Shown here: piece by piece, positions 7,718 to 44,279 of the stretch
How positions within the stretch are numbered: position 1 is the first letter of the stretch
Layout: every line of letters begins with the position of its first letter
Notes under the pieces: model-generated
Told to the model about the DNA's origin: nothing
Databases searched by the model: none
What the model saw: the letters and a program-made list of their open reading frames with translations, nothing else
Source: Mesorhizobium sp. ORS 3324
Lineage (GTDB): Bacteria > Pseudomonadota > Alphaproteobacteria > Rhizobiales > Rhizobiaceae
Length of the DNA stretch: 64,000 nucleotides
Assembly: GCA_000824825.2 (NCBI GenBank)
Contig: LM655170.1
Coordinates: 125,425-189,424 of the forward strand
Reading direction: 5' to 3'
Translations under genes and position numbers: made by a program

Positions 7718-7895
7718 GGCGACAGCCGCGGTTCGTGGAACCGCGGAAGGCCCAAAAGCGGGCTGCCGGAGGCGGGAGAGCAGTGCTCTCCTCGCCCCCC
7801 GGCAAGGTTACACTTGGCAGCCCCCTGCCACCGGAGCCGTTCAGCGTCCGGCAGAATCGCTGAACTGCTCCGACTCTTCGTTTTCCGGACGATGA

Positions 7896-9086: not shown

Positions 9087-9149
9087 GACTGGGCTTTCGC
9101 GGAAACTGGTTTTCTCTTGGCCGGTGCCGGTCTGGTCAACCGCGCCGGA

Positions 9150-9228: not shown

Positions 9229-9259
9229 TCGTTCGCTGAACAGCTCTAGGCGCCGCCGG

Positions 9260-9691: not shown

Positions 9692-9828
9692 CGTCTTTCC
9701 TTCCATGTCTCGAAGTCTGACGACACAACCCCTCTGCCGGGCGTTGGTTCCCGGCATGGAGCCGCGTGACGGCGACGAAGGCCGGCGGAGACGGCGTAGC
9801 GGTTTCCGGCCCGCAACGCCTATGGAGA

Positions 9829-15856: not shown

Positions 15857-15924
15857 CTGGATAACCGGTAGTTCCGAAATGGGGTGAGAACGCGACGGCG
15901 TTCCCCACCCCCTCCTGTCGGCCA

Positions 15925-20302: not shown

Positions 20303-20426
20303 CGCATTGATCTCCAAGCATCCGTTCACGACCCAGTAAACCGTTGCCGGAGACACTTCGCCTTGACCTGAGGCAAAAACAACGAAAGGGCCTGCAAATG
20401 TCGCCGAGCAGGGAAGGCGGCACTGC

Positions 20427-20516
20427 CTATCGGCGCTCGTACAGCACGCCCGGAACCAGTGCCAGGCGGATGAGCTCGGACAGATTCGAGGCCTGCATCT
20501 TGGTCATCACATTTGC
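20427..20516 (-). pseudogene. Relic of a FixJ/LuxR-type response-regulator C-terminus
   Basis: The minus strand reads ANVMTKMQASNLSELIRLAL and then VPGVLYERR and a stop. This matches the end of FixJ-family DNA-binding domains, which run VHR-anvM-kM-AsslaeLvrmAl. The preceding part of the helix-turn-helix and the receiver are absent, so only the last 29 codons survive. The rest of the 398-bp gap (20303-20700) shows no gene. Confidence 0.65.
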
Positions 20517-20700
20517 CGGAACGGAATTGGACAGCGGCTGATCGCTACCAACCCGCGAAATCATACCAAGTCAGAGATGTGAACATGTCCTCCGGGCCTA
20601 CCATTTTCCAAGCACCGGCTGCCCAGCCCCCAGGCGCGCAAAGATATAAGTCAAGGGCAACTTTGGTGTGTTATATACGCTCGGTGCGGATACGAGATCG

Positions 20701-21591
20701 ATGGATCAGGAAAGACTTCTGGCCGCAGTCCTCTTAGCTGATGTCGTGGGCAGCACGCCGCTCTACGAGCGCATCGGCGACGATGCCGCTCTACAGCAGA
20801 TCTCGGATTGCCTCGACGCGATACGCGAGATCGTAGCCCGGAACGGCGGTGATTTCATTTACTCGAAGGGTGATGACGTGCTCAGCCTGTTCGAGAGGCC
20901 GGAGGGGGCGCTGAGGGCCGTCTGCCAAATCAGCAGCCAACTGACGAAAGGGCCGCTGGGCGCCCGGATCGGATTGCATTTCGGGGCGGTCATTCGCGCG
21001 CGGGGCGCGGTATTCGGCGACGTTGTTAATGTCACCGCAAGATTGTCCACCACGGCCAACCCTGGGGAGGTGCTGATCAGCCAGAGCTTCTTCGAAGCCC
21101 TTTCGGCGGACAGCCGCAGTGCCTTGCGGCTGCTCGACAAAATGGCCTTCAAGGGGAAGCAAGAACTCTTCGATGTCTATACCCTGGGGAGCGACGATGG
21201 GGCCCTCAGTACGCAGATCGCCAGCCGAGGCACCATTGTCGATAGGCGCTCCGCCCCGCCGCGGCAGATCAATCTGGTCATCCGCTATGGAGATCAGTTG
21301 CGATCCTGCCGAAACAACGAATTCGTGACGATCGGCCGATCTGCGGAATGCAATCTCGTCGTCCAGCGGCCCTGGGTCTCAAGGCACCACGCGACCTTCA
21401 CCATTTCGAATGGCAAGGTCCGGCTTATCGAGCGAAGCTCGTCGGGCACATTTGTGTCGATGGGACCCGACCATGAAGTATTCGTGCGCCGCGAAGATAT
21501 TCTCCTGTTCGGATCCGGCGTCATCTCGCCTGGACGGAGATCGTCCCTCGGCGACGCCCAAGTCCTTCACTACGAAATTATCTCAGACTGA
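20701..21591 (+). CDS. Class III nucleotide cyclase fused to an FHA domain
   Basis: A 296-residue soluble protein. Residues about 5-165 form a class III adenylate/guanylate cyclase domain: LLADVVGST contains the first metal Asp (14), KGDDVLSLF the second (58), and FGDVVNVTARL the dimer-interface part. Residues about 190-290 form a forkhead-associated phosphothreonine-binding domain: FVTIGRSAECNLVV, VSRHHATF and SSSGTFV. A GTG at 20668 is in frame, but the ATG at 20701 starts just before the domain. A phospho-Ser/Thr partner kinase is not nearby. Confidence 0.88.
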   Translation: MDQERLLAAVLLADVVGSTPLYERIGDDAALQQISDCLDAIREIVARNGGDFIYSKGDDVLSLFERPEGALRAVCQISSQLTKGPLGARIGLHFGAVIRARGAVFGDVVNVTARLSTTANPGEVLISQSFFEALSADSRSALRLLDKMAFKGKQELFDVYTLGSDDGALSTQIASRGTIVDRRSAPPRQINLVIRYGDQLRSCRNNEFVTIGRSAECNLVVQRPWVSRHHATFTISNGKVRLIERSSSGTFVSMGPDHEVFVRREDILLFGSGVISPGRRSSLGDAQVLHYEIISD

Positions 21592-21725
21592 CCCGGCCGG
21601 ACTCGTTAGCCGAAACCGGCCCAAACGGGTAGCTGCTTCTCTGTAGCATACACATCCGGCTTCCGACTTTTGCCCTAGGTATTCGGCGCGCGCCGGGATA
21701 GCATATGTGCTGGTTGGGGTGTGCG

Positions 21726-23303
21726 ATGACAGAAGTCTCGATACGCCGGGCGGACTTCATGATGGTCCTCGCTTATGCGTCGGATCTCGCGACGGGCCAT
21801 TCCCGCGACTTCGCGCTGAAATCCTGCGTACTTGCAATGCGGATCGCCGAGCTTGCGAACCTTCCTGGTGAGGTTCGCCGCAACGCCTACCATCAGTCGA
21901 TGCTTCGCTATGTAGGCTGCAATGCCGACACCCACCTTTTGTCGGCCACTTTCGGCGATGAAATTGCACTGCGCCAGGATCTTGTCGGTCTCGATATGGG
22001 CAACCGTGCTGAACTCGGCAGGGTCTTCGCGCAGGCCTTCAAGCGGTTCTACTACGATCTCGCCCCTGACGCGCGGGCTAAAGCAATCGAGGCCGCTATG
22101 TCGCAGGCGCTCGCAGTCGCCCGCCCGGTTCTCACCGCGCATTGCGAGGTCGCGCAGCGGATCGGTGAGCGGCTTGGCCTGTCTGGGGAGATCCGGCGCA
22201 ATCTTGGACAGATCTACGAACGCTGGGACGGCAGGGGCCTGCCGCGTGGGCTGAGCGGCGAGCATGTCCTGCCGGCCGTGCGTCTGATCACATTGGCGCA
22301 GGATGCGATTGCGCTCTGCGATGCCGTCGGCATCGACCGGATGGCCGAGACCATCGCCAGCCGCGGCGATGGCCCCTACGAAGCGGATCTTGCCCGGCTC
22401 GTCGCCGCCAACGCGGCGGCGCTGATGGAAGGCATCGGCGCGACGGTCGACCGTGAGACGATCCTTGCGCTGGAGCCCGATCCACCGGTGACACTGGATG
22501 AGGCGGCTTGCGACGAGGCGTTCCTCGCCATTGCCGACATGATCGACATGCGCATGCCGTTCACGCACGGCCATTCTCGGATGGTGGCGGAACTGGCCGA
22601 AGGCGCTGGGCGGCGGACCGGGCTGCCAGACGCTGACGTGCGGGCGCTACGCTGGTCGGGCTGCATCCATGACATCGGCGAACTCGTGGTGCCGGTGGCG
22701 ACCTGGATGCGCAACGGTCCGTTGTCGGTGCGTGAGCGCGACGCGGCGCAACTGCACCCCTATTACGGCGAGCGGGCGCTGGCTTCCTTCGGCCGCGACG
22801 GCGATGCCATGGCCGCTCTCGTGCTGTGCCATCACGAACGCCTGGACGGCTCGGGATATCACCGCAAGGTCGGCGGCTCCGACCTATCCCCGGCGGCGAG
22901 GATCCTGGCTGCGGCCGAAGCGTTCCAGACGTCGCGCGAGGAACGTCCGCATCGCAGGGCGCTATCCAGCGAGGCAGCGGCGGCACAGTTGCGCGCGGCT
23001 GTTCGCGAGGGCTGTATCTGCCCCGATGCCGCCGAGGCCGTGTTGTCCGTCGCCGGGCTACCGTCACGCCGGACTCTGCCGCCGGCGCTCGGCGGCATGA
23101 CGGCGCGGGAGATCGAGGTGCTGCGCCTGATCGCGGCCGGCCTTACCGCAAAGGAAGTGGCGCGCAAGCTCGATATCTCGCCCAAGACCGCGGACCACCA
23201 TATCGAGAGCGTCTATTCCAAGATCCGCGTCACCACGCGCGCCGCAGCCGCGCTCTATGCGGTCGAGCATGGCCTTATCCGTCCGGGCGAGACGCCAGCA
23301 TAG
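21726..23303 (+). CDS. Tandem HD-domain (HD-GYP-like) protein with LuxR output domain
   Basis: A 525-residue protein with three parts. Residues about 10-200 look like a degenerate HD-GYP unit (ATGHSRDFAL, ERWDGRGLPRGL) without the HD pair. Residues about 270-440 form a second unit with CIHDIGE (His315-Asp316) and HHERLDGSGYHR (369-380), where GYH stands in place of GYP. Residues about 455-520 form a LuxR helix-turn-helix (MTAREIEVLRLIAAGLTAKE, ISPKTADHHIESVYSKI). HD-GYP proteins hydrolyse cyclic di-GMP; here the activity or ligand may control transcription directly. Start chosen at 21726, with GGGG upstream. Confidence 0.87.
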   Translation: MTEVSIRRADFMMVLAYASDLATGHSRDFALKSCVLAMRIAELANLPGEVRRNAYHQSMLRYVGCNADTHLLSATFGDEIALRQDLVGLDMGNRAELGRVFAQAFKRFYYDLAPDARAKAIEAAMSQALAVARPVLTAHCEVAQRIGERLGLSGEIRRNLGQIYERWDGRGLPRGLSGEHVLPAVRLITLAQDAIALCDAVGIDRMAETIASRGDGPYEADLARLVAANAAALMEGIGATVDRETILALEPDPPVTLDEAACDEAFLAIADMIDMRMPFTHGHSRMVAELAEGAGRRTGLPDADVRALRWSGCIHDIGELVVPVATWMRNGPLSVRERDAAQLHPYYGERALASFGRDGDAMAALVLCHHERLDGSGYHRKVGGSDLSPAARILAAAEAFQTSREERPHRRALSSEAAAAQLRAAVREGCICPDAAEAVLSVAGLPSRRTLPPALGGMTAREIEVLRLIAAGLTAKEVARKLDISPKTADHHIESVYSKIRVTTRAAAALYAVEHGLIRPGETPA

Positions 23304-28661: not shown

Positions 28662-29789
28662 CTATTTGAAAAGCAGCGCCGGGAAGGTGATGATCGCGGC
28701 GGTGCCGTCCACCATGCCCGCAGCCAGGTGCCGCCCGTCGCCGGACCAGGCCAGCGCGGTGATAGCGCTGCCGGAAGGTTTCACGACAAGTTCGTCGCGC
28801 GATCCGATCTGGGCGATGGTGAGACGGCCATTGGCGTAACCGGCGGCAATGATTTTCCTCTCCGGGTGCGCTGCCACCGTCTCGACAGGAACCAGCCCGG
28901 GGCGACCTGTCTCAAGCGCGCCGGAAGCCGCGTCATGAAGCGGCGGGGTGGCCACCGACCAGCCGGCGATACGGAAAGCGCCCGACGCAAACAGCGCATT
29001 CGCCGGCCGGCTCCAGCACACCGTCCGAACCGGCGAGGGAAATCCGCCGACGATGGCCGATTGACCATCTGCCGGACTGGCAAGGACAAAGCCTCCGGTC
29101 TCAAGTCCGCATGCCAGCCATGAACCGTCGCCGCTCCAGCGAAGCGACGTCAGGCCTGCCGGCGTGGAAAAATCGCGCAGCGGCACGGGATCGCCGTCGA
29201 CCGTCCGGATCGACACTCCATTGCCGGAATCGAAGGCAAGCTGTTTCCCGTCCGGCGATAAGGCAATTGCGTGCGTCGATGAGTACGCTGCTTGCTGCAG
29301 CTTCACCATCTCGTCGTGGGCGCGCGACAGGAAGACGTCATGTCCATTGCTGATCGCCGTCGTAGCGGTCCCGTCGTTATGATCGATGGCGACGATCGGC
29401 CCCTCGATGTTGATAGGTGTCTCCGTGACCTCCCCGTCCGCCGCCAGGTGCAGTGCCTGGCCGGTTGTCGTACCAATAAGAAAGCCGGAGCGAAGATAGC
29501 TCGTGAGCGGCACGTCACCATCTGCCAGCGCTGATGTGGCGATTAGCGGAGCCGTGGGCATCTGGCGCGGTCGGATCGTTGTTTGTCCGAGGTCGCCGCT
29601 TACCCTGATCCTCGATTCCGGCTGCTCCTGATCAGCCACCGGCCCGATGGCGACGCTTCCGTCCACGGATGTGAATGCGACGGCAGAGCCATCGGCGCTG
29701 AAACATACGGCGGCAATCGCCGCGGGCCGCTGCCAGCTTCGCGCCAGCAGGTCGAATGGGCTCAGGTTTTGGGTTGCTTGCTGGTTCAC
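28662..29789 (-). CDS. WD40-like beta-propeller protein
   Basis: A 375-residue protein with about six or seven degenerate WD40-type blades, seen as recurring SPDG/SGDG turns followed by hydrophobic strands (AAVCFSADGSAVAFTSVDG, AIALSPDGKQLAFDSGNG, SLRWSGDGSWLACGLETG, ALAWSGDGRHLAAGMVDG). Such propellers are binding scaffolds. There is no signal peptide or membrane segment. The GTG start overlaps the preceding stop as GTGA and has GGAGAGGAG just upstream. It belongs to a tight four-gene unit with no recognised enzymes; the partner and role are unknown. Confidence 0.82.
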   Translation of the reverse strand: MNQQATQNLSPFDLLARSWQRPAAIAAVCFSADGSAVAFTSVDGSVAIGPVADQEQPESRIRVSGDLGQTTIRPRQMPTAPLIATSALADGDVPLTSYLRSGFLIGTTTGQALHLAADGEVTETPINIEGPIVAIDHNDGTATTAISNGHDVFLSRAHDEMVKLQQAAYSSTHAIALSPDGKQLAFDSGNGVSIRTVDGDPVPLRDFSTPAGLTSLRWSGDGSWLACGLETGGFVLASPADGQSAIVGGFPSPVRTVCWSRPANALFASGAFRIAGWSVATPPLHDAASGALETGRPGLVPVETVAAHPERKIIAAGYANGRLTIAQIGSRDELVVKPSGSAITALAWSGDGRHLAAGMVDGTAAIITFPALLFK

Positions 29790-30585: not shown

Positions 30586-30725
30586 CGTCTTTCTCGGCTT
30601 GCCTCCTGCCCGCGATCTGCTCCCAAATAATGTATGAAATGATCGAAATGAATAGAGCCTGACTATTTTAATTTATATTGCAATCGCTAACAGTATATAT
30701 CGCAGTGCACAAAATTCTCAGAAGT

Positions 30726-30739
30726 ATTACATATGTAAT
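30726..30739. promoter_or_regulatory. 14-bp perfect palindrome ATTACATATGTAAT
   Basis: A perfect palindrome about 100 bp upstream of the sigma-54 promoter core, in an AT-rich stretch unlike the surrounding DNA. It could be a regulator-binding site for the monooxygenase operon or the divergent WD40 operon. Confidence 0.45.
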
Positions 30740-30742
30740 ATA

Positions 30743-30767
30743 CAACTGTAAAATATCGTTACAGTTG
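30743..30767. promoter_or_regulatory. Candidate activator-binding site: CAACTGTAA-N7-TTACAGTTG
   Basis: A perfect inverted repeat with 9-bp arms and a 7-bp spacer, centred about 85 bp upstream of the -24 element. That position suits an upstream activator sequence for a sigma-54 enhancer-binding protein. The activator encoded at 42204-44279 is the likely binder; this is inference. Confidence 0.6.
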
Positions 30768-30836
30768 CTAGGATGTTGCTGGGTGGAACGGGCTGCGATC
30801 TCGGCCCAGGCGCTGGTTACGGGCTTCAATTCCAAT

Positions 30837-30854
30837 TTGGCACGGTGTTTGCTT
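30837..30854 (+). promoter_or_regulatory. Sigma-54 (-24/-12) promoter of the monooxygenase operon
   Basis: The sequence TTGGCACGGTGTTTGCTT matches the RpoN consensus TGGCAC-N5-TTGC exactly, with GG at 30839-30840 and GC at 30851-30852. Transcription should start near 30863, giving a leader of about 290 nt before the large hydroxylase gene. The operon has a sigma-54 activator gene downstream, which fits. Confidence 0.88.
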
Positions 30855-31080
30855 CACCATTGGCATAAGAAGCCCATCGCGCTCTGACGCGGTGCCAAAA
30901 GAACGAAGGACCGGAGGAAGCAGCAGGACACGCGCTTCGATGCGCCCATCGCGAAATGCGATCGGCGTTTCGCAGCTCCCGCAGGCCCCCCGAAAACCTT
31001 TGCCGCGATCCACTTGAATGGCTGGACCCGGTGTCGCGCCTGGATGCGCAACCCTTTGTCGCGCCGTTCGCAAACTCACT

Positions 31081-31099
31081 GACGGCATTGTGTGCCGTC
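31081..31099 (+). other. Hairpin in the monooxygenase leader
   Basis: GACGGCA (31081-31087) and TGCCGTC (31093-31099) form a perfect 7-bp stem with a 5-nt loop, about 50 nt before the first gene. A weaker stem, GCGAAA/TTTCGC, lies at 30951-30973. No U-run follows, so neither is a plain terminator; a role in message stability or leader control is possible. Confidence 0.4.
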
Positions 31100-31151
31100 T
31101 CATGTCCTGGATCGAGGGATCCATGGCTCAACCTGGTGGAGGCTTATGACG

Positions 31152-32819
31152 ATGTCGTCGTTGACACTTAACAAGATTACCTCGCAGCGCGGTATTTCCG
31201 TGGGCGAGGCAACCAAGAAGATTTCCGACCTCGGTTGGAATCCGACCTATGTCCAGGAAGCGATGACGTTTCCGACCGACTACAAGATCGCCAAGGCGCC
31301 GCGCGATCCGATGAAGCAGGTGCTGCGCTCCTACTTCCCCATGCAGGAGGAAAAGGACAATCGCGTCTACGGTGCGCTCGACGCCGCCCTTCGCGGTGAC
31401 ATGTTCCGCAATGTCGAGCCGCGCTGGGTGGAGTGGATGAAGCTTTTCCTCGCCATCATTCCCTTCCCGGAAATTTCCGCGGCCCGCTCGATGGCGATGG
31501 TGGCGCGCCTGGCGCCCGGCGAGGACCTCAGGACCGGTTTCACCATGCAGATGGTCGACGAGTTCCGCCACTCCACCATCCAGATGAATCTGAAGAAGTG
31601 GTACATGGAGAACTACATCGACCCGGCAGGGTTCGACATCACCGAAGAAGCCTTCGGCAAGTGCTACGCGACCACGATCGGCCGCCAGTTCGGCGAAGGC
31701 TTCATCACCGGCGATACGATGACGGCTGCCTGCATGTACCTCACCGTCGTCGCTGAGACCGCCTTCACCAACACGCTCTTCGTCGCCATGCCGTCGGAGG
31801 CGGCCCGCAACGGCGACTACGCGCTGCCGACCGTGTTCCTGTCGGTGCAGTCCGACGAGAGCCGCCACATCGGCAACGGCCATTCGCTGCTGATGGCCGC
31901 CCTGAAGGAGCCGGAGAACCATCTGCTCCTGGAGCGCGACCTGCGCTACGCCTTCTGGCAGAACCACGCCATCGTCGACGCCGCCATCGGGACCTTCATC
32001 GAATACGGCACCACCAACCGCGACAAGAACAAGGAGTCCTACGCGGAGATGTGGCATCGCTGGATCTACGAAGACTACTATCGCACCTACATGCTGCCGC
32101 TCGAGAAATACGGCATCAAGGTCCATCATGACGACGTCCAGGCCGCCTGGGAACGCATCACCAAAAAGAACTACGTCCACAAGGTCGGCCAGTTCTTCGC
32201 CGTCGGCTGGCCGGTCAACTTCTGGCGAATCGAGGCTCAGACCGACAAGGACTTCGAGTGGTTCGAGCACAAATATCCGGGCTGGTACGCCGAGTTCGGC
32301 GACTTCTGGAAATGGTATGCCAAGCTCAGCCACAAGGGCGAGAAGGTGCTGCTGTTCAACAGCGATGTCGGCTACGTCTATCCGCACCGCTGCTGGTCTT
32401 GCCTGGTGCCTTGCCTGATCCGCGAGGACATGGTGGTCGATGAGATCGACGGGCAGTTGCACACCTTCGCCCACGAACTCGACCGCTGGACCGCCGTCGA
32501 AGCCTTCGCCGACGAGTATCAGGGCCGCCCGACGCCCGCGATGGGCCGCTTCAGCGGCAAGCGCGAATGGGAAACGCTCTATGACGGCTGGGACCTCGCG
32601 GATGCCATCAAGGACCTCAACTTCGTTCGTTCCGACGGTAAGACGCTGATCCCGCAGCCGCACCTGCGCTTCGGCGCCGACGAGCAGTGGACGCTCGACG
32701 ACGTGCGCGGCAACATCCTCGGGTCGCCGCTCAAGGCGCTTCGCAGCATGTCGCCAGCGGACCGCGAGAAGCACCTTGCCGAGTATCGGGCGGGCTTCAC
32801 CATCACGCCGTTCAACTGA
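31152..32819 (+). CDS. mimA: Soluble di-iron monooxygenase, large (alpha) hydroxylase subunit
   Basis: A 555-residue protein carrying the di-iron centre of a propane/acetone/phenol-type monooxygenase (mim/prm group). Iron ligands are Glu107 (PFPE), Glu137 and His140 in DEFRH, Glu202 (AET), Glu236 and His239 in DESRH. Their spacing equals that of methane monooxygenase (114, 144, 147, 209, 243, 246) throughout. Long stretches such as SYFPMQEEKDNRVYGA and GRQFGEGFITGD agree with mycobacterial MimA as I recall it. GGTGGAGG precedes; an ATG at 31146 is an alternative start. It is first gene of an eight-gene operon. It activates O2 to hydroxylate a small alkane, ketone or phenol; the exact substrate cannot be read from sequence. 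Confidence 0.95.
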   Translation: MSSLTLNKITSQRGISVGEATKKISDLGWNPTYVQEAMTFPTDYKIAKAPRDPMKQVLRSYFPMQEEKDNRVYGALDAALRGDMFRNVEPRWVEWMKLFLAIIPFPEISAARSMAMVARLAPGEDLRTGFTMQMVDEFRHSTIQMNLKKWYMENYIDPAGFDITEEAFGKCYATTIGRQFGEGFITGDTMTAACMYLTVVAETAFTNTLFVAMPSEAARNGDYALPTVFLSVQSDESRHIGNGHSLLMAALKEPENHLLLERDLRYAFWQNHAIVDAAIGTFIEYGTTNRDKNKESYAEMWHRWIYEDYYRTYMLPLEKYGIKVHHDDVQAAWERITKKNYVHKVGQFFAVGWPVNFWRIEAQTDKDFEWFEHKYPGWYAEFGDFWKWYAKLSHKGEKVLLFNSDVGYVYPHRCWSCLVPCLIREDMVVDEIDGQLHTFAHELDRWTAVEAFADEYQGRPTPAMGRFSGKREWETLYDGWDLADAIKDLNFVRSDGKTLIPQPHLRFGADEQWTLDDVRGNILGSPLKALRSMSPADREKHLAEYRAGFTITPFN

Positions 32820-32922
32820 CCATCCGAGCGCGGGGGTCGGGTCCGACCCCCGCGACATTCCAAAGGAAGGCCACTTCCCGACCCGCAGGGGCGGGGAACG
32901 GAGAGGAATTGGGAGGTTATCG

Positions 32923-33981
32923 ATGACTGGTGCTCACACGGTGCGCCTGGAGCCGGTCGGCGTCGAGTTCGAGGTCGAAAACGGTGAAACGGTCCTGAAC
33001 GCGGCATTCCGCCAGGGTATCGCGCTGCCGCATGGCTGCAAGGAAGGGCAATGCTCGGCTTGCAAATGCGTGCTGCTCGAAGGCGAAGTCGACATGCTGA
33101 AATACTCGACCTTCGCGCTCAACGACATGGAGAAGGAGAGCGGCCACGTCCTGTTGTGCCGGTCGATCGCCTATTCCGACATGCAGGTCGAGCTCCTCAA
33201 CTACGACGAGGAGGTTCTGGCGAAATCAATCGCGGTGAAGACGTTCAGTGGCCGGATCTCGAAATTCGAGCATCTCACCCACGACATCCGCGGCATCGAG
33301 ATTGAACTCGGCTCGCCGATAAAATTCTGGGCTGGGCAATATGTCGACATCACAGTCACCACGCAAAAAGGGGAGACGATTACGCGCTCGTTCTCCATGG
33401 CAAATACGCCGGACCAAACCCAAAAGCTCTCCTTCATCATCAAGAAATACCCCGAAGGAAAGTTCTCCGGAGAACTCGATTCCGGAGGCATCCGCGTCGG
33501 AGCCGAGGTCACCGTCGTCGGCCCCTATGGAACCTGTTTCCGACGGGAAGAGCGGCAAGGTCCCCTGATCCTGGTCGGCGCCGGATCCGGCATGTCGCCG
33601 GTCTGGTCGATCCTCAACGATCACCTGAAGAGCGGCGAAAAGCGGGACATCTATTTCTTCTATGGCGCGCGCACGCCCAGCGACCTGTTCTATCTCGACA
33701 GGATCGCCGAGCTCGCCGGCCGGCACCCGGAGCTGAACTTCATCCCCGTTCTCTCGCACGTCAACGGCGAGGCCTGGGATGGCGAGCGCGGCTTCGTGCA
33801 CCAGAGTGTAGACGCCAAGCTCAAGCAGCTTGCGGTCGACGGACAGGGCGACGTCTATGCCTGCGGTCCGCCGCCGATGATCGACGCGCTGCAGCCCGTC
33901 CTGTTCATGAACGGCTTCGAGACCGAACGCATCTTCTTCGACAGGTTCACCACATCGTCCAGCGCCGCCCCGGCCCATTGA
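32923..33981 (+). CDS. mimB: Monooxygenase reductase (2Fe-2S ferredoxin, FAD, NADH domains)
   Basis: A 352-residue electron-transfer subunit. Residues about 1-95 form a plant-type ferredoxin with CKEGQCSACKC and a final Cys in LLCRS. Next is an FAD-binding barrel (about 105-205, with TRSFSMANTP), then an NAD(P)H domain (GAGSGMSPVWSIL, ACGPPPMIDA). It passes electrons from NAD(P)H through FAD and the cluster to the di-iron hydroxylase. GGGAGG lies 6 nt before the ATG at 32923; an open extension upstream is intergenic. Gene order large subunit, reductase, small subunit, coupling protein is that of mim/prm operons. Confidence 0.95.
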   Translation: MTGAHTVRLEPVGVEFEVENGETVLNAAFRQGIALPHGCKEGQCSACKCVLLEGEVDMLKYSTFALNDMEKESGHVLLCRSIAYSDMQVELLNYDEEVLAKSIAVKTFSGRISKFEHLTHDIRGIEIELGSPIKFWAGQYVDITVTTQKGETITRSFSMANTPDQTQKLSFIIKKYPEGKFSGELDSGGIRVGAEVTVVGPYGTCFRREERQGPLILVGAGSGMSPVWSILNDHLKSGEKRDIYFFYGARTPSDLFYLDRIAELAGRHPELNFIPVLSHVNGEAWDGERGFVHQSVDAKLKQLAVDGQGDVYACGPPPMIDALQPVLFMNGFETERIFFDRFTTSSSAAPAH

Positions 33982-34034
33982 GGCGGGTCGGAGCCGACGA
34001 CTTTAGAGCAACTGCAACAAAGGGAGTGAAGACA

Positions 34035-35093
34035 ATGGTAGCAACGTCGAGTTCAGTAGGATCGGGAGCCGCGGGAGCCGCGGTGTTCGCCGATTCGGAC
34101 AGCCGCAGGTATCGGTATTTCGATCCGAAAGGTCAGCGCGCCACCCACTACGAGGATGTCACGGTCGACGTGCAGCCCGATCCCGAGCGCTACCTGATCC
34201 AGGACTGGATCATCAACTTCCCGGACGGCAAAGGCGCCTACGTCAAGGACAACACGGCTGCCAAGAGCTCGAACTGGCACGCGTTCCGCGCTCCCGACCA
34301 GGAATGGGAACGCACGCATTACCAGCGCCAGTCGAAGATCGAGACGATGGTTCAAAGCGTCATCACCAACGCCCGCCGCGCCGGCGCGCCGAAGACGTTC
34401 GACAAGGTCTGGGCCAAGCTCCTGCAGGCGCACCTCGGAGCATGGAAGCATGCCGAGTTTGGCCTGGGCACGTCGCTCATGCAGGCGCAGCGCTACGGCT
34501 ACACGCAGATGATCAACAATGCGACGCTGACCAACTCTTCCTACAAGCTGAGGCTCGCCCAGGACATCACGCTTTATCTGGCCGAGATCGGCATGGACAT
34601 CGCCGGCTGGGACGATGAGCTCGGCAAGAAGCATTGGCTGGAGGACGGCGTCTGGCAGGGCACTCGCGAGGCGGTCGAGACCATCATGGGCACGGCCGAC
34701 TATCTCGAGCAGTACTTCGCCATCAACATCGTGTTCGAGCCGCTGGTGGGCGAATTGTTCCGCTCCGGCTTCCTCATGCAGGCTGCGGCGGCCAATCACG
34801 ACTTCATCACGCCGCCGGTGATTTCGGCGGCTGAAGCCGACTACGAGCGCAACCTCGCCAACACCATCGACCTCATCTACCTGCTCGCCCACGACGAGAA
34901 GCACGGGGCGGACAACAAGAAGCTTTTCCAGGGCTGGATGAACAAGCATGGCGCGCTCGCCGACAAGGCGGCCACCGGCCTTCAGCCGATCTGGTCGATG
35001 CCGCATTCCAAGCCGGTTTCCTTCACCGACGTTCGCGCCCAATCCGAGGAACGGATTGGCCGGATCCTCGGCGAACTCGGCCTCAAGCGCTGA
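34035..35093 (+). CDS. mimC: Soluble di-iron monooxygenase, small (beta) hydroxylase subunit
   Basis: A 352-residue structural partner of the alpha subunit. It has the ferritin-like helical pattern of the beta subunits (YLIQDWIINFPDGKG, LGAWKHAEFGLGTSLMQAQR, YLEQYFAINIVFEPLVGELF) but no complete set of iron ligands, as expected. GGGAG lies upstream of the ATG at 34035. It sits between reductase and coupling-protein genes. It should form an alpha2beta2 hydroxylase with MimA. Confidence 0.93.
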   Translation: MVATSSSVGSGAAGAAVFADSDSRRYRYFDPKGQRATHYEDVTVDVQPDPERYLIQDWIINFPDGKGAYVKDNTAAKSSNWHAFRAPDQEWERTHYQRQSKIETMVQSVITNARRAGAPKTFDKVWAKLLQAHLGAWKHAEFGLGTSLMQAQRYGYTQMINNATLTNSSYKLRLAQDITLYLAEIGMDIAGWDDELGKKHWLEDGVWQGTREAVETIMGTADYLEQYFAINIVFEPLVGELFRSGFLMQAAAANHDFITPPVISAAEADYERNLANTIDLIYLLAHDEKHGADNKKLFQGWMNKHGALADKAATGLQPIWSMPHSKPVSFTDVRAQSEERIGRILGELGLKR

Positions 35094-35109
35094 ACAGGGG
35101 AGAAGCAAC

Positions 35110-35478
35110 ATGTCAGTAGCAGCACGCGACGCCTCGCAGTCCAACATCTTCAAGTCGATGAAGGACATCACTTTCGAGCAGACGATCTCGCACCAGTGCG
35201 GTGTCACCATGAACGACTCGGTCGAGGCCCGCGCCATCGCCGAATTCATGGGCAAGAAGCCAGGGGTCATCGTCACCTACCAGCCGGCCATGATCCGCAT
35301 CGACGGCAACGGCAAGCTGATCTTCAAGATGGACGAGATCAGCGAGTATCTCGGCCGCGAGATGACGGCCGAGATCTTCGAGGTCAACACCTCCACCCAC
35401 TACGGCCGCATGGTGCGCATCGACGACAACACCGTGATCCTGTTCGGGAACATGGACGAGGTCTTCGAGTACATCTGA
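35110..35478 (+). CDS. mimD: Monooxygenase coupling (effector) protein
   Basis: A 122-residue MmoB/DmpM-family protein (HQCGVTMNDSVEARAIAEFM, PAMIRIDGNGKLIF, EVNTSTHYGRMVRI). It has no cofactor; it docks on the hydroxylase and tunes electron transfer and substrate access. It follows the small subunit by 16 bp with GGGGAGAAG as ribosome-binding site. Length is normal for the family. Confidence 0.93.
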   Translation: MSVAARDASQSNIFKSMKDITFEQTISHQCGVTMNDSVEARAIAEFMGKKPGVIVTYQPAMIRIDGNGKLIFKMDEISEYLGREMTAEIFEVNTSTHYGRMVRIDDNTVILFGNMDEVFEYI

Positions 35479-35548
35479 GGAAGCCCCGGTGCGCTGCATG
35501 GGTGCAGCGTGCCGGCCCCCATCAACACGACGATTGCGGAGGCAAGAA

Positions 35549-36571
35549 ATGTATAGGACACCTGAAGGCAAGGACATCTTCGTGGTCGACGGCCACACCC
35601 ATTTCTGGGACGGCAGCCCTGAAAACCAGAAGAACATCCACGGCAAGCAGTTCATCGACTGCTTCTATGCCTATCACACCGGGCTCAGCCCGAAAGAGCA
35701 GCTCTGGGAGAAGGGCAAGTTCGAAAAATACAGCGCCGACGATCTCTACCGCGATCTGTTCATCGACGGTCCCGACGACGTGGCGATCGTCCAGTCGACC
35801 TATCTGAAGGATTTCTACAAGAACGGCTTCAACACGATCGAGCGCAACGCGGAGGTGGCCAAACGCTATCCGGAGCGCTTCATCGTCAACGGCGCCTTCG
35901 ATCCGCGCGATGGCAAGAAGGCGCTGGAATACATCCATTTCATGAAGGAGACCTACGACATCAAGGGCGTGAAGATGTACACGGCCGAGTGGAATGGCGC
36001 CTCCAAGGGCTGGAGGCTCACCGATCCTGAGGCCTACAGGTGCTTCGAGCTGTGCGACAAGCTCGGCATCAGGAACATCCACGTCCACAAGGGTCCGACG
36101 ATCATCCCGCTCAGCAAGGATGCCTTCGACGTGCATGACGTTGACCATGCGGCGACGGATTTCCAGGGCCTCAACTGGATCGTCGAGCATTGCGGGCTGC
36201 CGCGCCTCGACGATTTCTGCTGGATCGCGACGCAGGAAACCAACGTCTATGGCGGCCTGGCGGTGGCGCTTCCCTTCATCCACTCGCGCCCGCGCTACTT
36301 TGCCGAAGTCATCGCCGAGCTGCTGTTCTGGATCGGACCGGAGAAGATCCTGTTCGGCTCCGATTACGCGATCTGGACGCCCCGCTGGCTTGTCGAGAAA
36401 TTCTGGGCCTATCAGATCCCTCAGGACATCGCAGCGGAGCGTGGTGTGCAACTGACCGACGAGATCAAGGAGAAGATCCTCGGCCTCAACGCCGCGCGTC
36501 TCTACAACATCGACATCGATGCCAAGAAGAAGGCGCTCGCAAGCTCGCCCTTCAGCATCGCGGCGGAGTAG
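35549..36571 (+). CDS. Amidohydrolase-2 family protein of the monooxygenase operon
   Basis: A 340-residue TIM-barrel metal hydrolase of the amidohydrolase-2 (aminocarboxymuconate decarboxylase-like) family. Metal-site elements are VDGHTHFWDG at the start, HVHKGPT near residue 188, VEHCGLP near residue 222 and FGSDYAIW near residue 280 (catalytic Asp). Such a gene follows the coupling protein in mim/prm operons, but its role there is not settled. GCGGAGG precedes the ATG at 35549. Possible roles are product hydrolysis or hydroxylase maturation; neither is shown. Confidence 0.9.
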   Translation: MYRTPEGKDIFVVDGHTHFWDGSPENQKNIHGKQFIDCFYAYHTGLSPKEQLWEKGKFEKYSADDLYRDLFIDGPDDVAIVQSTYLKDFYKNGFNTIERNAEVAKRYPERFIVNGAFDPRDGKKALEYIHFMKETYDIKGVKMYTAEWNGASKGWRLTDPEAYRCFELCDKLGIRNIHVHKGPTIIPLSKDAFDVHDVDHAATDFQGLNWIVEHCGLPRLDDFCWIATQETNVYGGLAVALPFIHSRPRYFAEVIAELLFWIGPEKILFGSDYAIWTPRWLVEKFWAYQIPQDIAAERGVQLTDEIKEKILGLNAARLYNIDIDAKKKALASSPFSIAAE

Positions 36572-37446: not shown

Positions 37447-39078
37447 ATGCCCAAAATAATGCTTCACAATTCCGAGGCCCGCCGGGCCCTGGCCCGTGGT
37501 GTCTTTCGCTTGGCCGCGGCCGTCGAGCCCACGCTCGGCCCCAAAGGCATGAACGCCATGATCGACCGTCCGATAGGCACGCCGATGGTGACGCGCGACG
37601 GCGTCAGCATCGCCTCCGAGATCGAACTCCATGACCGTTTCGAAAACATGGGCGCGCAAGTCGTCCGCGAAGTCTCCATGCAGACCAACGAGGTCGCCGG
37701 CGACGGCACCACGACCGCTATCGTGCTTGCCAACGCGCTGATCCAGGGCGGCATTCAAGCCAGTGAACGCGGCGCGAAATCCGTTGATCTGTGTAAAGGC
37801 ATTGAGCTTGCCGTAACGGCGGTTGTGGACGCTCTCAAGGCTTCGGCCAAGCCGGCCACGGGCAACGGCATTCTCGCCGCTGTTGCCAACATCGCTGCGA
37901 CCGACGCCAAACTCGGCGCGCTGGTGGCAGAAGCGCATCAACGGGTCGGCGCCGAAGGCGTTATCACAACCGATTTCAGCGTCACCACCGAGACCACGCT
38001 CGACGTTGTCGAGGGCATGTCCTTCGATCGGGGCTACCTCTCACATCACATGGTCACCGACCAGGAGAAGATGGAGGCCGTGCTCGAGCGACCCTTCATC
38101 CTGATGACCGACCTCAAGATCAAGGAACCCAGCGCGCTCGAGGCTGCGCGCCGCATCGCCGACGAGGCCGGGCGGCCGCTGCTGATCGTGTCCGAGGAAG
38201 TATCGCCGGAAGTCGTGGTTACACTGCTCGGCAAGCGGGGACCCGGCAAATATCTCGTCGTCCATCCGCCGGAATACGGCCATTGGCGCAAGGCGATGAT
38301 GGAGGATCTGGCGATCATCACCGGAGGCCGGGTCATCGCCCGCGATCTCGGTGGCCGACTTGAAGACGTCACTGCCGAAGATCTCGGAGCCGCCGACCGG
38401 GTGAAGACCAGCTCGTCCTACACCTCGATCATTCGCGGCGGCGGCAATCATGACGTGATCGCCTCTCGCCGCGCACAGGTGCAGCGGCAGTACGAAGCCG
38501 CGCCGCCGAACATCGAGCAGGACAAGCTGCGCGAGCGCCTGGCCAAGCTTTCAGGCGGCACCGCCATCCTCTACGCCGGCGGCGTCACGCCGGTCGAGCA
38601 GAAGCGGACCATCCAGCTGATCGAGGATTCGCTGAATGCGGTGCGCGCGGCCTCCGAGGAGGGCGTGGTCGCCGGCGGCGGTTCCGCGCTTGCCCAGATC
38701 GCGCCGCTGCTCGACAAGGTGGCAGGCGGTGTCGGCGGCGACATTGCCGAAGGGGTGCGGCTGGTCCGTTCGGTGCTGACACGGCCCCTATGGCGTATTG
38801 CCGCCAATGCCGGCGCCGATCCCGAGGCCGTGGTGGCGGAGGTGACGCGTATCAACGGTGGCTACGGCTACAACGCATCCGTCGGCAGCTATCAGAACAT
38901 GTTCGAAGCCGGGATCATCGACCCCGTCCGCGTCACCTATACCGCGCTTGCCAACGCGGCTTCCGTGGCGACGCTGATCCTGACCACCGAAACATTGATC
39001 GGCGACCTCGCCGAGGACGAGGACCCGACCGCCGGGCCGGCGCTTGGTGGCGGCGCAGAGAAACTTGGCCGCGCCTGA
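37447..39078 (+). CDS. mimG: GroEL-like chaperonin dedicated to the monooxygenase
   Basis: A 543-residue group I chaperonin: TLGPKGMNAMID (ATP loop), VAGDGTTTAIVLANALI (catalytic Asp), and the apical domain with SEEVSPEVVVTLLGKR. It is diverged from housekeeping GroEL, has no GGM tail (ends GGGAEKLGRA) and no groES beside it. In Mycobacterium a chaperonin in the same operon is needed to fold the MimA hydroxylase, so the same is expected here. GGAAGGAGGAG precedes the ATG. It would need GroES from elsewhere. Confidence 0.93.
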   Translation: MPKIMLHNSEARRALARGVFRLAAAVEPTLGPKGMNAMIDRPIGTPMVTRDGVSIASEIELHDRFENMGAQVVREVSMQTNEVAGDGTTTAIVLANALIQGGIQASERGAKSVDLCKGIELAVTAVVDALKASAKPATGNGILAAVANIAATDAKLGALVAEAHQRVGAEGVITTDFSVTTETTLDVVEGMSFDRGYLSHHMVTDQEKMEAVLERPFILMTDLKIKEPSALEAARRIADEAGRPLLIVSEEVSPEVVVTLLGKRGPGKYLVVHPPEYGHWRKAMMEDLAIITGGRVIARDLGGRLEDVTAEDLGAADRVKTSSSYTSIIRGGGNHDVIASRRAQVQRQYEAAPPNIEQDKLRERLAKLSGGTAILYAGGVTPVEQKRTIQLIEDSLNAVRAASEEGVVAGGGSALAQIAPLLDKVAGGVGGDIAEGVRLVRSVLTRPLWRIAANAGADPEAVVAEVTRINGGYGYNASVGSYQNMFEAGIIDPVRVTYTALANAASVATLILTTETLIGDLAEDEDPTAGPALGGGAEKLGRA

Positions 39079-39122: not shown

Positions 39123-40166
39123 ATGAAAGCTGCCAGACTTTACGAATACGACCCGAAAATGAACGTGAAGCTCAAGATCGAGGAGGTCAAGGCGCCGACG
39201 ATCACCGCACCTGACGAGGTGATCGTCAGGGTCGGCGCCGCGGGCCTGTGCCGCACGGACCTCCACATCATCGAAGGCGTGTGGAAGCCGACCATGGATC
39301 CCGACGGCACGCTTCTGCCCTATATCATGGGGCACGAGAATGCCGGCTGGGTCGAGGAAGTCGGCAGCGGCGTCAGGTCGGTCAAGCGCGGCGATGCCGT
39401 CATCTGCCATCCGTTCCGCTCCTGCGGCATCTGCCTCAACTGCCGGCACGGCGAGGACATGTATTGCGACAATGGCCAATTCCCCGGCCTGGGCATGAAT
39501 GGCGGCTTCGCTGAATACTTCATCACCAGCGAGCGCTCGCTGATCAAGCTGAATGTCAATGTCACGCCAATCGAAGTGGCGCCGCTGGCCGATGCCGGCA
39601 TCACCGCCTACCGGGCAGCCAAACGAGCGGCGAAGCTTTTACGGCCGGGCAGTTACTGCGTCCTGCTCGGCATCGGTGGCCTCGGCCACATCGCGCTGCA
39701 ATCGCTGCATGCGATTTCGGGTTGCCGGATCATCGCAGTCGATCGCGAGCCGGCGGCGCGCGTGCTGGCCAAGGATCTTGGCGCCGATTTCGTCCTCGAC
39801 GGCGGGCCGAACGTCGTCGAGGAGGTGAAGGCGATCACCGGCGGTGGGGCTCATGTGGTCATCGATTTCGTCGGCGAGCTCGGCGTCGAGAACATCTGCT
39901 GGAAGATGGTGCGCAAGGGCGGTCAGTTGTTCGTCGTCGGCTATGGCGGCTCGGTCAACGTGCCGACCGCGCATCTGGTCATCGAGGAGATCAACATCGG
40001 CGGCAGCCTGGTCGGCAATTTCACCGAGCTAGTCGAGTTGATGGAGCTCAACGCCGACGGCAAGGTGAAGATGCACTACACCGAATACAATCTCGCCAAC
40101 ATCAACACCGCCCTCGACGACTTCAAAAACCGGCGGTTCACCGGCCGCGGCGTCATTGTTCCCTGA
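39123..40166 (+). CDS. Zinc-dependent NAD alcohol dehydrogenase
   Basis: A 347-residue medium-chain dehydrogenase. Catalytic zinc site: Cys in AAGLCRTDLH and the GHENAGWVEEVG block. Structural zinc: CGICLNCRHGEDMYC, four Cys. Cofactor loop GIGGLGHIALQ followed by an acidic residue (IIAVDRE), indicating NAD over NADP. As the last enzyme of the monooxygenase operon it probably oxidises the alcohol made by the hydroxylase, for example 2-propanol, 1-propanol or acetol. The gap from the chaperonin is 44 bp. Confidence 0.93.
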   Translation: MKAARLYEYDPKMNVKLKIEEVKAPTITAPDEVIVRVGAAGLCRTDLHIIEGVWKPTMDPDGTLLPYIMGHENAGWVEEVGSGVRSVKRGDAVICHPFRSCGICLNCRHGEDMYCDNGQFPGLGMNGGFAEYFITSERSLIKLNVNVTPIEVAPLADAGITAYRAAKRAAKLLRPGSYCVLLGIGGLGHIALQSLHAISGCRIIAVDREPAARVLAKDLGADFVLDGGPNVVEEVKAITGGGAHVVIDFVGELGVENICWKMVRKGGQLFVVGYGGSVNVPTAHLVIEEINIGGSLVGNFTELVELMELNADGKVKMHYTEYNLANINTALDDFKNRRFTGRGVIVP

Positions 40167-42203: not shown

Positions 42204-44279
42204 TCATACGAACCCGCGTCGGATGCCGTATTGCTCAAGTTTGCGATAGAGCGTAGGCCGCGAAATGCCCAGTCTCTGGGCGACCTTACTCAGATTGCCA
42301 TTCTCCGCGGCTAGCGCGTTCCTGATCGCCTGGCGCTCGCCATCCTCGAATGTGCACACCGGCGCCTCGAGCATGGCCGCTGGATTGTCATTGTGCGAGG
42401 TCGAGCCGTTGCGATTGGCGACGGTGATTTCCCACGGGAGATCCTGGAGGCTGATGGTGCTGTTGCTCGCCAGGATATGCAGGCGCTCCATGAGGTTCTT
42501 CAGCTCGCGCACGTTGCCTGGCCAACGATAGGCAAGCAGCGCGTCGAGCGCGTCGTTTGAAAATTCCAGCGGATCGTTGCCGGTCTTGCCAGCAATCTGG
42601 CGATTGAAATGCTCGACCAGCAACAACACGTCCTCGCCACGCTCGCGCAGGGCGGGGACACGTATCGAGACGGCGCCGATGCGGTAATAGAGATCGCTGC
42701 GGAAGCGCCCGGCCGCGACTTCCTGCTTGAGATCGCGATTCGTCGAGGCGACCAGCCGGACGTCCACAGGCCGCCCCCTGCTGTCGCCGATGCGGTGAAC
42801 GACACGCTCTTCCAGCACACGCAACAGGAACGGCTGGATCTCGAGCGGCAACTCACCGATTTCGTCGAGGCTGAGCACGCCGCCATTGGCCTGCTCGAAA
42901 ACGCCCGCCTTGCCTTCACGCGAGGCGCCAGTAAAGGCGCCAGCCACGTGGCCGAACAGCTCGCTGCCGAACAGCTCCTTGGTGATCGCGCCGCAATTCA
43001 ACGCGACGAAAGGGTCATTGTCCGTACGCCGACTGCCAGCATGGACAAGCCGCGCGAACAGTTCCTTGCCGACGCCGGTTTCGCCTTCTATCAGCAGCGA
43101 TGTCACGCCCCTCGACCGAGCCACGCGGGAGGCGACATCGATGGCGGCCAGCAGCTTCTCGCTCTCGCCGACGATCATCGACGTTGCTGCCTGCAACGGG
43201 TTGTTTGTCTCCCGGCTGATCACCGCCACACCCGAAACCACCGGCGCGGCCGGGAACACCAGAGCCGCGCCGCTGAGATTCCCGTCCAGTTTCAGTGGCG
43301 TGATGTGACAGGACCGCAGATGCACCGGGAGTGCCTTGGCGAGATCGCTGTCCGAGCCGGGCGCCGGCAGGTTCATGAGCCAACGACCGCGACCCGGCTC
43401 GATCGGCCCATCCGTCATCCCGGTGGTCTCGCCATTGGGCACGTTGTTGCAGAAGATCGCTCGGCCACGGTGATCGACGATCACCAAGCCGTCTTTCCCG
43501 CGGTAACCGGGTGCCGAGGAAATGAAAGCTTCTAGCAGGCGGGTGCGCTGTTCCTGCTGCTGCTCGGCCAGCGCCTTTTCGATCTGCCTGGCAGTGGCGG
43601 CGACAAGAGCCGTGTTGTGGGGGCGGAAGATCGGCGAATAACCTGACAGGTCAACGACACCGATGATCTTTCCATCCAACGGGTCGCGGATCGGCGCGCC
43701 GGCGCAGGTCCAGCCTTTGATGCCAGCGCAGAAATGCTCGGCTGCGTGGACGAAGATCGGTTCGCCGGTCCAGAGCGCGGTGCCGATGCCGTTGGTCCCG
43801 ACAGCGCCCTCATTCCATTTGCCGCCGATGGCGAGATGGATGTCCATGCCATCATGCAGGGTCTTCTTGTCGCCGATGGCTTCGATCAGCACGCCGTCGC
43901 TGTCGGCCAGCACCAGCATCGCTCCCGTCCCTTCCAGCAGCGGGCCGAGGGAGGCGAACGGCCGCCGCGCCGCCGAAAGCAGCTCGGCGTTGGCGCGGGT
44001 CAGATACTCGATCTCGTCACGATTGCTGTTGAGGGGGGCCTCGACCCCCTGCGCGTTGATCCCGCCAGTGGCGCTGCGGTACCAGGAATCGTGGATCAGC
44101 GAGCGGACCTGGACCGGATCGCGCGCGCATTGCGGCGCGTCGGACAGAAAGTTTTCCCAGGCGCGCATGGTGGCGCGCTCGTCATAGTCGATGGAATCCA
44201 GAACCAGTCCAGTGGCTATCGGCGCGCGCGCCGGAAGGCCACCGGTCTTCATCTGGTTGGTATCGATCCCGCGTTTCAT
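42204..44279 (-). CDS. mimR: AcoR/MimR-type sigma-54 transcriptional activator
   Basis: A 691-residue enhancer-binding protein. Residues about 100-240 form a GAF sensory domain. The AAA+ core spans about 370-600 with Walker A GETGVGKE (399-406), the sigma-54-contacting GAFTGA (447-452) and Walker B LSLDEIGEL (Asp472-Glu473). The C-terminal Fis-type helix-turn-helix is at about 645-690 (NLSKVAQRLGISRPTLYRKL). The AcoR family senses ketones, diols or alcohols. A perfect sigma-54 promoter upstream of the monooxygenase operon makes it the evident target. Convergent with the glyoxalase gene. Confidence 0.94.
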   Translation of the reverse strand: MKRGIDTNQMKTGGLPARAPIATGLVLDSIDYDERATMRAWENFLSDAPQCARDPVQVRSLIHDSWYRSATGGINAQGVEAPLNSNRDEIEYLTRANAELLSAARRPFASLGPLLEGTGAMLVLADSDGVLIEAIGDKKTLHDGMDIHLAIGGKWNEGAVGTNGIGTALWTGEPIFVHAAEHFCAGIKGWTCAGAPIRDPLDGKIIGVVDLSGYSPIFRPHNTALVAATARQIEKALAEQQQEQRTRLLEAFISSAPGYRGKDGLVIVDHRGRAIFCNNVPNGETTGMTDGPIEPGRGRWLMNLPAPGSDSDLAKALPVHLRSCHITPLKLDGNLSGAALVFPAAPVVSGVAVISRETNNPLQAATSMIVGESEKLLAAIDVASRVARSRGVTSLLIEGETGVGKELFARLVHAGSRRTDNDPFVALNCGAITKELFGSELFGHVAGAFTGASREGKAGVFEQANGGVLSLDEIGELPLEIQPFLLRVLEERVVHRIGDSRGRPVDVRLVASTNRDLKQEVAAGRFRSDLYYRIGAVSIRVPALRERGEDVLLLVEHFNRQIAGKTGNDPLEFSNDALDALLAYRWPGNVRELKNLMERLHILASNSTISLQDLPWEITVANRNGSTSHNDNPAAMLEAPVCTFEDGERQAIRNALAAENGNLSKVAQRLGISRPTLYRKLEQYGIRRGFV

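Follow-up and report, generated by a model that had tools for sequence, protein, structure and literature searches.

How is the monooxygenase operon of Mesorhizobium sp. ORS 3324 controlled, and does its control end at the promoter? In the 64,000-nt stretch of DNA that we analysed (the window), we propose that there are two stacked layers of control: a sigma-54 activator with its promoter, and a structured leader that acts in cis on the transcript. We put the probability of this reading at roughly 0.7.

The operon lies on the forward strand and begins with a prmA/mimA-type hydroxylase large subunit (31152..32819; Pfam Phenol_Hydrox, 2.9e-61; alternative ATG at 31146). It continues with ORFs for a reductase (32776..33981, whose true start is probably around 32923), the hydroxylase small subunit (33978..35093), and a coupling protein (34948..35478, with an MmoB_DmpM domain in its C-terminal part). 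Domain searches identified the small subunit and also the genes that follow: an amidohydrolase (35489..36571), a protein with an FeS-assembly domain (PF01883; 36577..37371), a GroEL-like chaperonin (37447..39078), and a Zn alcohol dehydrogenase (39123..40166). All four monooxygenase subunits and GroEL are thus found in one cluster, and the operon encodes a soluble di-iron monooxygenase (SDIMO) of the prm/mim type (group 5), the group being assigned from gene order and the literature. According to the available parts of two papers, the substrates that this group of enzymes oxidises include propane, acetone, and pollutants, among them dioxane and N-nitrosodimethylamine (PMC8784404, PMC8394569). 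Because the coupling protein scores 110.3 bits against the NCBIfam equivalog MimD, whose cut-off is 150, we do not call the operon propane-specific, and its substrate is not settled. In three plasmid relatives, prmA clusters repeatedly have WD40-repeat proteins and small hypothetical proteins nearby (9204-10331 in locus L136, 10507-11607 in L129, and 24437-25552 in L132), and a 375-aa ORF upstream of prmA in the window (28662-29789, reverse strand) may be their counterpart.

Upstream of prmA, an earlier note made from the sequence had pointed to an exact RpoN consensus with correct spacing at 30837. A motif scan bears this out: the sigma-54 promoter TTGGCACGGTGTTTGCTT (30837..30854, forward strand) fits TGGCAC-N5-TTGCW exactly, with the −24 GG at 30839-30840 and the −12 GC at 30851-30852, 10 nt apart. 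When the 64-kb window was scanned for TTGGCACG-N4-TTGCTW with up to three mismatches, there were three matches (mean of 7.5 in the shuffled window); the site at 30837 had no mismatches, the other two had three each, and within two mismatches it is the sole match in the window. From the position of the −24 and −12 elements, we infer that the transcript would start at about 30864. Two loci in the genome match Sigma54_DBD (E 3.3e-71 and 4.4e-69), which means that there are two rpoN genes. A sigma-70-like match (9/12) is also seen at 30726-30754 on the forward strand, where it overlaps the upstream element in an AT-rich stretch; there are three sigma-70-like matches in 30600-31300, versus 0.5 in shuffles.

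To see what is conserved, we compared 81 loci, namely the window and the best 80 of at least 588 prmA relatives, with up to 10 kb fetched on each side. In all 80 relatives, prmA is at least 89% identical, so relatedness inflates the raw locus counts that we give below. The set splits into 62 Hyphomicrobiales-type and 19 Rhodobacterales-type loci (28 and 17 nonredundant rows, respectively). The sigma-54 site of each locus was taken as the best score in the roughly 500 nt upstream of prmA, a choice that favours consensus letters. TGGCAC-N5-TTGCW is exact in 62 of the 81 loci, and the best-scoring sites have the −24 GG in 80 loci, the −12 GC in 79, and both in 78. A score of at least 17 was reached by all 62 Hyphomicrobiales-type loci and by 5 of the 19 Rhodobacterales-type loci in this best-80 set. 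The other 14 Rhodobacterales-type sites are weak (<17), and 7 of the 19 have A instead of C in GGC.

The earlier note had also described two palindromes upstream of the promoter. The perfect 9-bp inverted repeat is there (CAACTGTAA-N7-TTACAGTTG, 30743-30767), and so is the palindrome before it, which is a perfect 16 bp (TATTACATATGTAATA, 30725-30740) rather than 14. The two are parts of one composite activator element (30725..30767, forward strand) built of TTACA-N2-TGTAA repeats. Its parts are TTACATATGTAA (30727-30738), a second, imperfect dyad ATACA-AC-TGTAA (30740-30751), and a last half-site TTACA (30759-30763), and within it lies a core upstream activating sequence (UAS), TGTAA-N7-TTACA, which can also be written TGT-N11-ACA (30747..30763, forward strand). 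We rejected the strength of the palindromes as evidence, because 11 inverted repeats in the window are perfect over arms of 9 bp or longer (spacers of 0-15), and four 16-bp palindromes are likewise perfect. What takes this region beyond chance is its conservation in related loci. Within the organism's own 6.58-Mb genome, the inverted-repeat core with 6-bp arms occurs in one place, and the composite element is unique up to three mismatches.

The conserved unit turned out to be the core and not the 9-bp arms. The earlier note's suggestion that the same repeat would be found upstream of homologous operons holds for the element, but perfect 9-bp arms are present in just 13 of the 62 Hyphomicrobiales-type loci (from the best 80 of at least 588, with the window), all of them the window or loci named Mesorhizobium. 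(In one locus, L047, both 9-bp arms have changed alike and are still perfect.) With the promoter as the anchor of the alignment, the pattern TTACA-N2-YGTAA-N-TTACR-N2-TGTAA-N7-TTACA can be made out by eye in the Hyphomicrobiales-type loci. The half-sites that precede the core by 20, 13, and 7 nt agree in four or more of five letters in 58, 43, and 57 of these 62 loci, and the core matches at nine or more of ten positions in 60 of them. Among the nonredundant Hyphomicrobiales-type rows, 26 of 28 reach nine positions, versus 1.4% of shuffles. N7 was the best dyad spacing in both nonredundant sets when spacers of 0 to 13 were scanned, and a spacer of 1 was likewise enriched (22/28 Hyphomicrobiales-type rows), owing to the tandem units.

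The element is less well kept in the Rhodobacterales-type loci of the same set. Nine or more core positions match in 7 of the 19, and 5 of the 19 promoters have only 7/10. The nonredundant rows nonetheless stand above shuffles, both at nine or more positions (6/17 versus 0.6%) and at eight or more (12/17 versus 8.2%). We had considered that the UAS might be absent from Rhodobacterales, and we rejected this: it is present but weaker, and it is found at a greater distance, 107-195 nt from the promoter end of the stretch that was scanned.

Which protein might bind this element? The candidate is a GAF-AAA+-Fis activator encoded downstream of the operon on the reverse strand (42204..44279). It had been singled out in the earlier note for its intact GAFTGA and Fis-type helix-turn-helix, and we verified both the domains (GAF, Sigma54_activat of the AAA+ type, and the Fis-type HTH_8) and the motif. 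These are the features of a Fis-type enhancer-binding protein, and the core at 30747-30763 matches the UAS class TGT-N10-12-ACA that has been published for such activators upstream of their targets (PMC6615313, of which part was available). FhlA, NifA, PrdR, and other enhancer-binding proteins with a Fis HTH appear, from that part, to be similar in combining a TGT-N11-ACA-like dyad with such an activator. In Clostridiales, the accessible text places most TGT-N10-12-ACA sites 100-250 bp upstream of the promoter (PMC6615313). In contrast, the window has an extended TGTAA-N7-TTACA with tandem TTACA-N2-TGTAA units, and the end of the core is about 75 bp from −24.

An orthologue of the activator (at least 42% identity) is present in 63 of the 81 loci (window plus the best 80). 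We did not find one in the fetched stretch of the other 18, which stops early in some cases (L018, L022, L048, and L081) and not in others (L011, L025, and L051). Of the 62 loci of this set that reach the HTH, 61 have SRPTLYRK as the recognition helix and one (L063) has SRPTLYRR. We also fetched 8 of the 28 plasmid records with a prmA-like match. Among these relatives, the helix begins with SRS in Azospirillum, ART in Methylocella, SRA in Bradyrhizobium, and SRS in Caballeronia, and none of the four has a TGTAA dyad within 700 nt; Azospirillum has TGTCYC-N5-GSGACA dyads in its place. A Paracoccus locus (L133) has the SRP helix, yet there is no strict dyad within 700 nt. Furthermore, the organism's own genome has 11 further stretches that match the activator, in several other genes. 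Because of the Paracoccus exception and these related activators, we regard the pairing of the 42204-44279 activator with TGTAA-N7-TTACA as likely, but only likely.

Several other features of these regulators deserve mention. In 18 of the 81 loci (best 80 and window), a second GAF-AAA-Fis activator, only 28-31% identical, is encoded some 4-6 kb ahead of prmA, at about 3.3-5.7 kb in each locus (L046, L051-L057, L060, L061, L063, L065, L069, L070, L072, L073, L075, and L087). Three of the 18 are named Mesorhizobium, and none was seen near the window's own prmA. In Caballeronia (L129), the activator (19956-22004) has GAYTGA in place of GAFTGA, and by the patterns that we used there is neither a −24/−12 site nor a leader upstream of prmA. 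In Bradyrhizobium sp. CB82 (L132), which has the SRA helix, repeats rich in GCAA/TTGC upstream of −24 may represent a third type of activator site. Finally, on plasmid pAMI4 of Paracoccus aminophilus (L133), a sigma-54 factor gene lies about 3 kb from prmA, and there is an IS5-like element inside the operon (7834-9096, 14934-15863).

So, as a scheme of regulator, site, and promoter, the earlier note was right in outline: the promoter class, a conserved upstream element, and an orthologous activator in the locus all stand, and its definition of the site (9-bp arms and a separate palindrome) does not. It also leaves out the most conserved element in the region, which is a structured leader RNA downstream of the promoter. 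If the transcript starts at 30864, this leader is about 285 nt long (30865..31145, forward strand). It is supported by conservation and covariation, and a covariance model of the leader, R1, matches 30862-31015 with E 2.3e-30 in a search that included R1's own training row.

All parts of the leader are on the forward strand. P1 is a hairpin with arms at 30875-30881 and 30888-30894. It is followed by an 11-nt near-invariant core, AAGAACGAAGG (30899..30909), which 80 of the 81 loci (window and best 80 of at least 588) share letter for letter; the exception, L033, has AAGAACGAGGG, which is one letter off. The last six letters of the core, CGAAGG (30904-30909), are the 5′ arm of P2, and the 3′ arm, CCTTTG (30997-31002), lies in a second conserved block, ACCTTTGCC (30996..31004). 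The pattern CCTT[TC]GCC is found in all 81 leaders of the set. P2 is thus CGAAGG paired with CCUUUG some 90 nt on, and across loci the partner begins 44-100 nt after the core; measured from start to start, the distance between the two blocks is free (55 to 111 nt). GGA-rich letters follow the core. Further down are the hairpins P4 (31081..31099, arms GACGGCA at 31081-31087 and TGCCGTC at 31093-31099) and P5 (TGGATC-GAGG-GATCCA, 31108..31123), and then the Shine-Dalgarno sequence GGAGG (31138..31142).

We examined these helices in alignments of nonredundant leaders. Alignment A1 has 45 rows drawn from 80 of the 81 leaders after rows at least 0.90 alike were removed (L033, which does not have the exact core, and L060, which holds an N, were left out), and A2 has the identical 45 loci. 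A3 has 43 hand-picked rows, including L033, L124, L126, and L132, which were chosen because P2 varies in them; the P2 counts of A3 therefore do not represent a random sample. In A1, P1 has changes on both sides in 7/7 pairs, with 80.9% of cells paired. P2 is nearly invariant in A1 and is paired in 43/43 of the hand-picked A3 rows, where two of its pairs are compensated (CGAGGG/CCCUUG in Bradyrhizobium L132 and CGAAGA/UCUUUG in L124). Taken together in A1, P1 and P2 have 89.7% of cells paired, versus 79.3% in shuffles (reached by 0/500), and a covariation score of 0.271, versus 0.102 in shuffles (again 0/500), and slid versions score at most 0.077. The number of pairs with double changes (7), on its own, was matched by 57/500 shuffles. 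P4 has double changes in five of six scored pairs and 88.1% of cells paired, versus 85.6% in shuffles; its number of pair types was reached by 310/500 shuffles. P5, which comes from the fold and a table of stems, is weakly supported: its letters differ between clades while the pairing is kept, and 10/45 rows are above the 95th percentile of shuffles, but in 11/45 the script chose a stem further up. The GGAG of the Shine-Dalgarno sequence is invariant in A2. Folded one at a time, eight sequences gave only modest z-scores (−2.27 to +1.02), so the case for the leader rests on comparison. We also count it as a caution that the predictions place P2 above 0.5 in 33 of the 45 leaders. In short, compensatory base-pair changes, which are also a test for riboswitches, are found in P1, P2, and P4.

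These changes bear on whether a leader with a function is needed at all. The simplest explanation would be that the activator, the palindrome, and the sigma-54 promoter suffice and that the leader is merely a long untranslated region. All of the evidence at the level of the promoter fits this, but the leader core is conserved better than the upstream palindromes, even in the Rhodobacterales-type loci, whose upstream site has drifted, and P1, P2, and P4 carry compensated changes. We therefore consider a single layer of control quite improbable.

The position of the core suggests another explanation. In 81/81 loci (window plus the best 80), AAGAACG follows the start of the −24 motif at a distance of 51-65 nt, and we conclude from this nearly fixed distance to the promoter that the leader RNA would start with the transcript, P1 being close to the expected 5′ end. 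The same regularity could mean that AAGAACGAAGG is a DNA site for a protein that acts downstream of the start. This seems very improbable: changes in the P2 partner, which begins 44-100 nt beyond the core, are compensated, and P1 also covaries, both of which argue for pairing in RNA. Nor does the conserved block seem to encode a leader peptide, which we rejected as scarcely credible: the window does have a 25-codon ORF from ATG 30940, but this start codon is not conserved (it is ATA in L010 and others), the spacing of the blocks is free (55 to 111 nt), and it is the paired blocks that are conserved.

Does the leader belong to this operon, or is it used elsewhere? Of 7972 candidates in the organism's own genome, 150 were scored with R1; a single leader emerged (E 4.9e-29), and the runner-up had E 3.4. 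Among 29 leader-carrying genomes and plasmids, with at most 117 candidates scored in each, 28 have a single match, and the extra match in the other one (G932, E 0.016) does not have the core. The core pattern occurs in 1/385 genomes of a class-wide sample, which is the organism's own, and in 13/249 genomes of a sample of the order, where 10 of the 13 are directly before prmA. As a control, the reversed pattern gave one match in each of these two samples, and given this we treat the three order-sample matches away from prmA (G460, G567, and G613) as chance. (The one in G613, locus L102, was picked by the core pattern in a genome with no prmA match; it scores 22.7 bits with R1 and 28.7 with a second covariance model, R2, and by eye it lies between gene ends and has no clear P1.) A search of 289 class-sample genomes with R1, with at most 10 candidates scored in each, found only the organism's own leader, which is a weak negative. 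The wider samples contained too few prmA carriers to be informative (2/318 class-wide and 4/349 phylum-wide).

Conversely, not every prmA has the leader. Of the 20 order-sample genomes with prmA, 13 have both conserved blocks, two have variants (L124, where a sigma-54 site is also present, and L126), and in five none was found (L120, L122, L125, L127, and L128). R1 finds the leader in 11 of 21 prmA loci outside the model, with L126 only at E 0.35. R2 finds no leader in those five loci or in L129, L131, L134, and L135, and in L130 there is only a 10-bit match elsewhere. Plasmid loci from Azospirillum, Methylocella, and Skermanella have sigma-54 sites, but we found no leader in them, which places the leader in a single lineage of the system. 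Similarly, the loci of family f206 (L120, L122, and L125) have sigma-54-like sites and no canonical leader that we could find, and the one prmA carrier from outside the order (L169) has neither a leader nor a sigma-54 pattern in the 450 nt that were read. By eye, there are TTACA/TGTAA dyads upstream of prmA in the AT-rich f206 loci L122 and L125, and L122 has a possible AAAGG/CCUUU counterpart of P2.

Nor did the five leaders that we scanned match a known family. Against Rfam 15, nothing came near a gathering score (best E 1.8); there were two weak matches to narK, which span the promoter and the letters immediately following. In the open-licence literature on propane monooxygenase, its regulators, Mesorhizobium, or RNA motifs, we found no description of the leader. 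It looks like an undescribed, operon-specific RNA with a presumed regulatory function.

What might it do? A post-transcriptional role in cis is most likely, because the leader starts at the promoter, there is apparently one per genome, it lies almost only before prmA in our samples, and there is no terminator-like site. (None was found in 30600-31300, and of the 81 leaders (window and best 80) just one, that of L020, has five T in a row.) The folds of 45 leaders bear on whether there is a simple switch. The Shine-Dalgarno sequence is mostly paired (mean openness 0.27), and we rejected a switch between CCUUU and the Shine-Dalgarno sequence as a general mechanism, with a mean pairing between the two of 0.05. 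When P2 was blocked rather than forced, the openness of the Shine-Dalgarno sequence fell by more than 0.1 in 3 of the 45 leaders and rose in 7, so a simple switch is unsupported, as the state of P2 moves this openness in no consistent direction.

One possibility is that the leader is a riboswitch that binds a substrate, product, or cofactor of the pathway (such as acetone, isopropanol, or an iron-related signal). It has conserved AAGAA and CC letters beside a nearly invariant helix, its peripheral helices vary, and it is linked to one catabolic operon. This last feature can be turned around, however: most riboswitch classes precede several genes, and this leader is found with one operon. The region 30600-31300 has no terminator-like site, blocking P2 in silico gave no consistent shift in access to the Shine-Dalgarno sequence, and the five leaders have no Rfam match, so we think a riboswitch unlikely. 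A more specific proposal, that an orphan riboswitch gates translation of the monooxygenase in response to a short-chain alkane or ketone metabolite or to the enzyme's metal state, strikes us as rather unlikely.

A second possibility is that the leader binds a protein or a small RNA, or acts as a 5′ stabiliser, and so sets the lifetime or translation of the mRNA with no sensing of a metabolite. The single-operon distribution in our samples, the hairpin near the 5′ end, and the GGA-rich letters after the core are consistent with this, but no candidate partner was identified. We favour it tentatively, at a little under even odds, and a role of this kind seems more likely than binding of a metabolite.

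Returning to the two-layer reading, we propose the following sequence of events. The AcoR-like activator (GAF-AAA+-Fis) would sense a pathway signal through its GAF region, bind TGTAA-N7-TTACA and the neighbouring half-sites about 75-115 bp upstream of −24, and open the sigma-54 polymerase at 30837-30854. The transcript would then open with P1, AAGAACGAAGG, and P2, which closes a variable arm, followed by P4 and P5 before the Shine-Dalgarno sequence. A protein, a small RNA, or a ligand may read the AAGAA/P2 core, and the translation or stability of the prm mRNA would thereby be set in cis.

It is also useful to compare this arrangement with known systems. The available parts of two papers describe actinobacterial prmABCD/mimABCD clusters (Rhodococcus BCP1, Gordonia TY-5, and Mycobacterium) with PrmABCD, an amidohydrolase, a metal-sulfur protein, an alcohol dehydrogenase, GroEL, and a Fis-family regulator (PMC4428276, PMC8394569), and on that showing the gene set of the window's operon is alike. 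For the prmA of BCP1, the portion available gives hypothetical elements of the −10/−35 type and not sigma-54 (PMC4428276). Butane monooxygenase and its regulator BmoR likewise combine a sigma-54 activator with a monooxygenase operon, as far as the accessible part of the source goes (PMC8784404), but that enzyme is a group 3 monooxygenase and so belongs to another group than the window's. Unlike the window, a Rhodococcus locus (L135) has neither a sigma-54 site nor a leader by the patterns and models that we used. MimR is reportedly the subject of a mycobacterial paper. As for the RNA, structured 5′ leaders such as riboswitches and protein-binding leaders similarly have covarying helices around conserved bases upstream of the ribosome site. 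In contrast to known leader RNAs, this one reaches E 1 with no Rfam 15 family in five loci, and in the samples that we searched it accompanies a single operon.

These results provide, at the level of the promoter, a testable pair of regulator and site, with a 17-bp core and natural variants in specificity (SRP versus SRS, SRA, and ART helices). The leader adds a candidate structured RNA with nearly invariant bases, compensated helices, and no Rfam match in five leaders. The regulators of these monooxygenases are of interest as biosensors, and a hidden post-transcriptional layer, if it is real, would affect induction, transfer to other hosts, and the use of reporters. If the leader should prove to be an orphan riboswitch, then a single mRNA would be subject to two sensors in series, the ligand-sensing sigma-54 activator and the leader itself.
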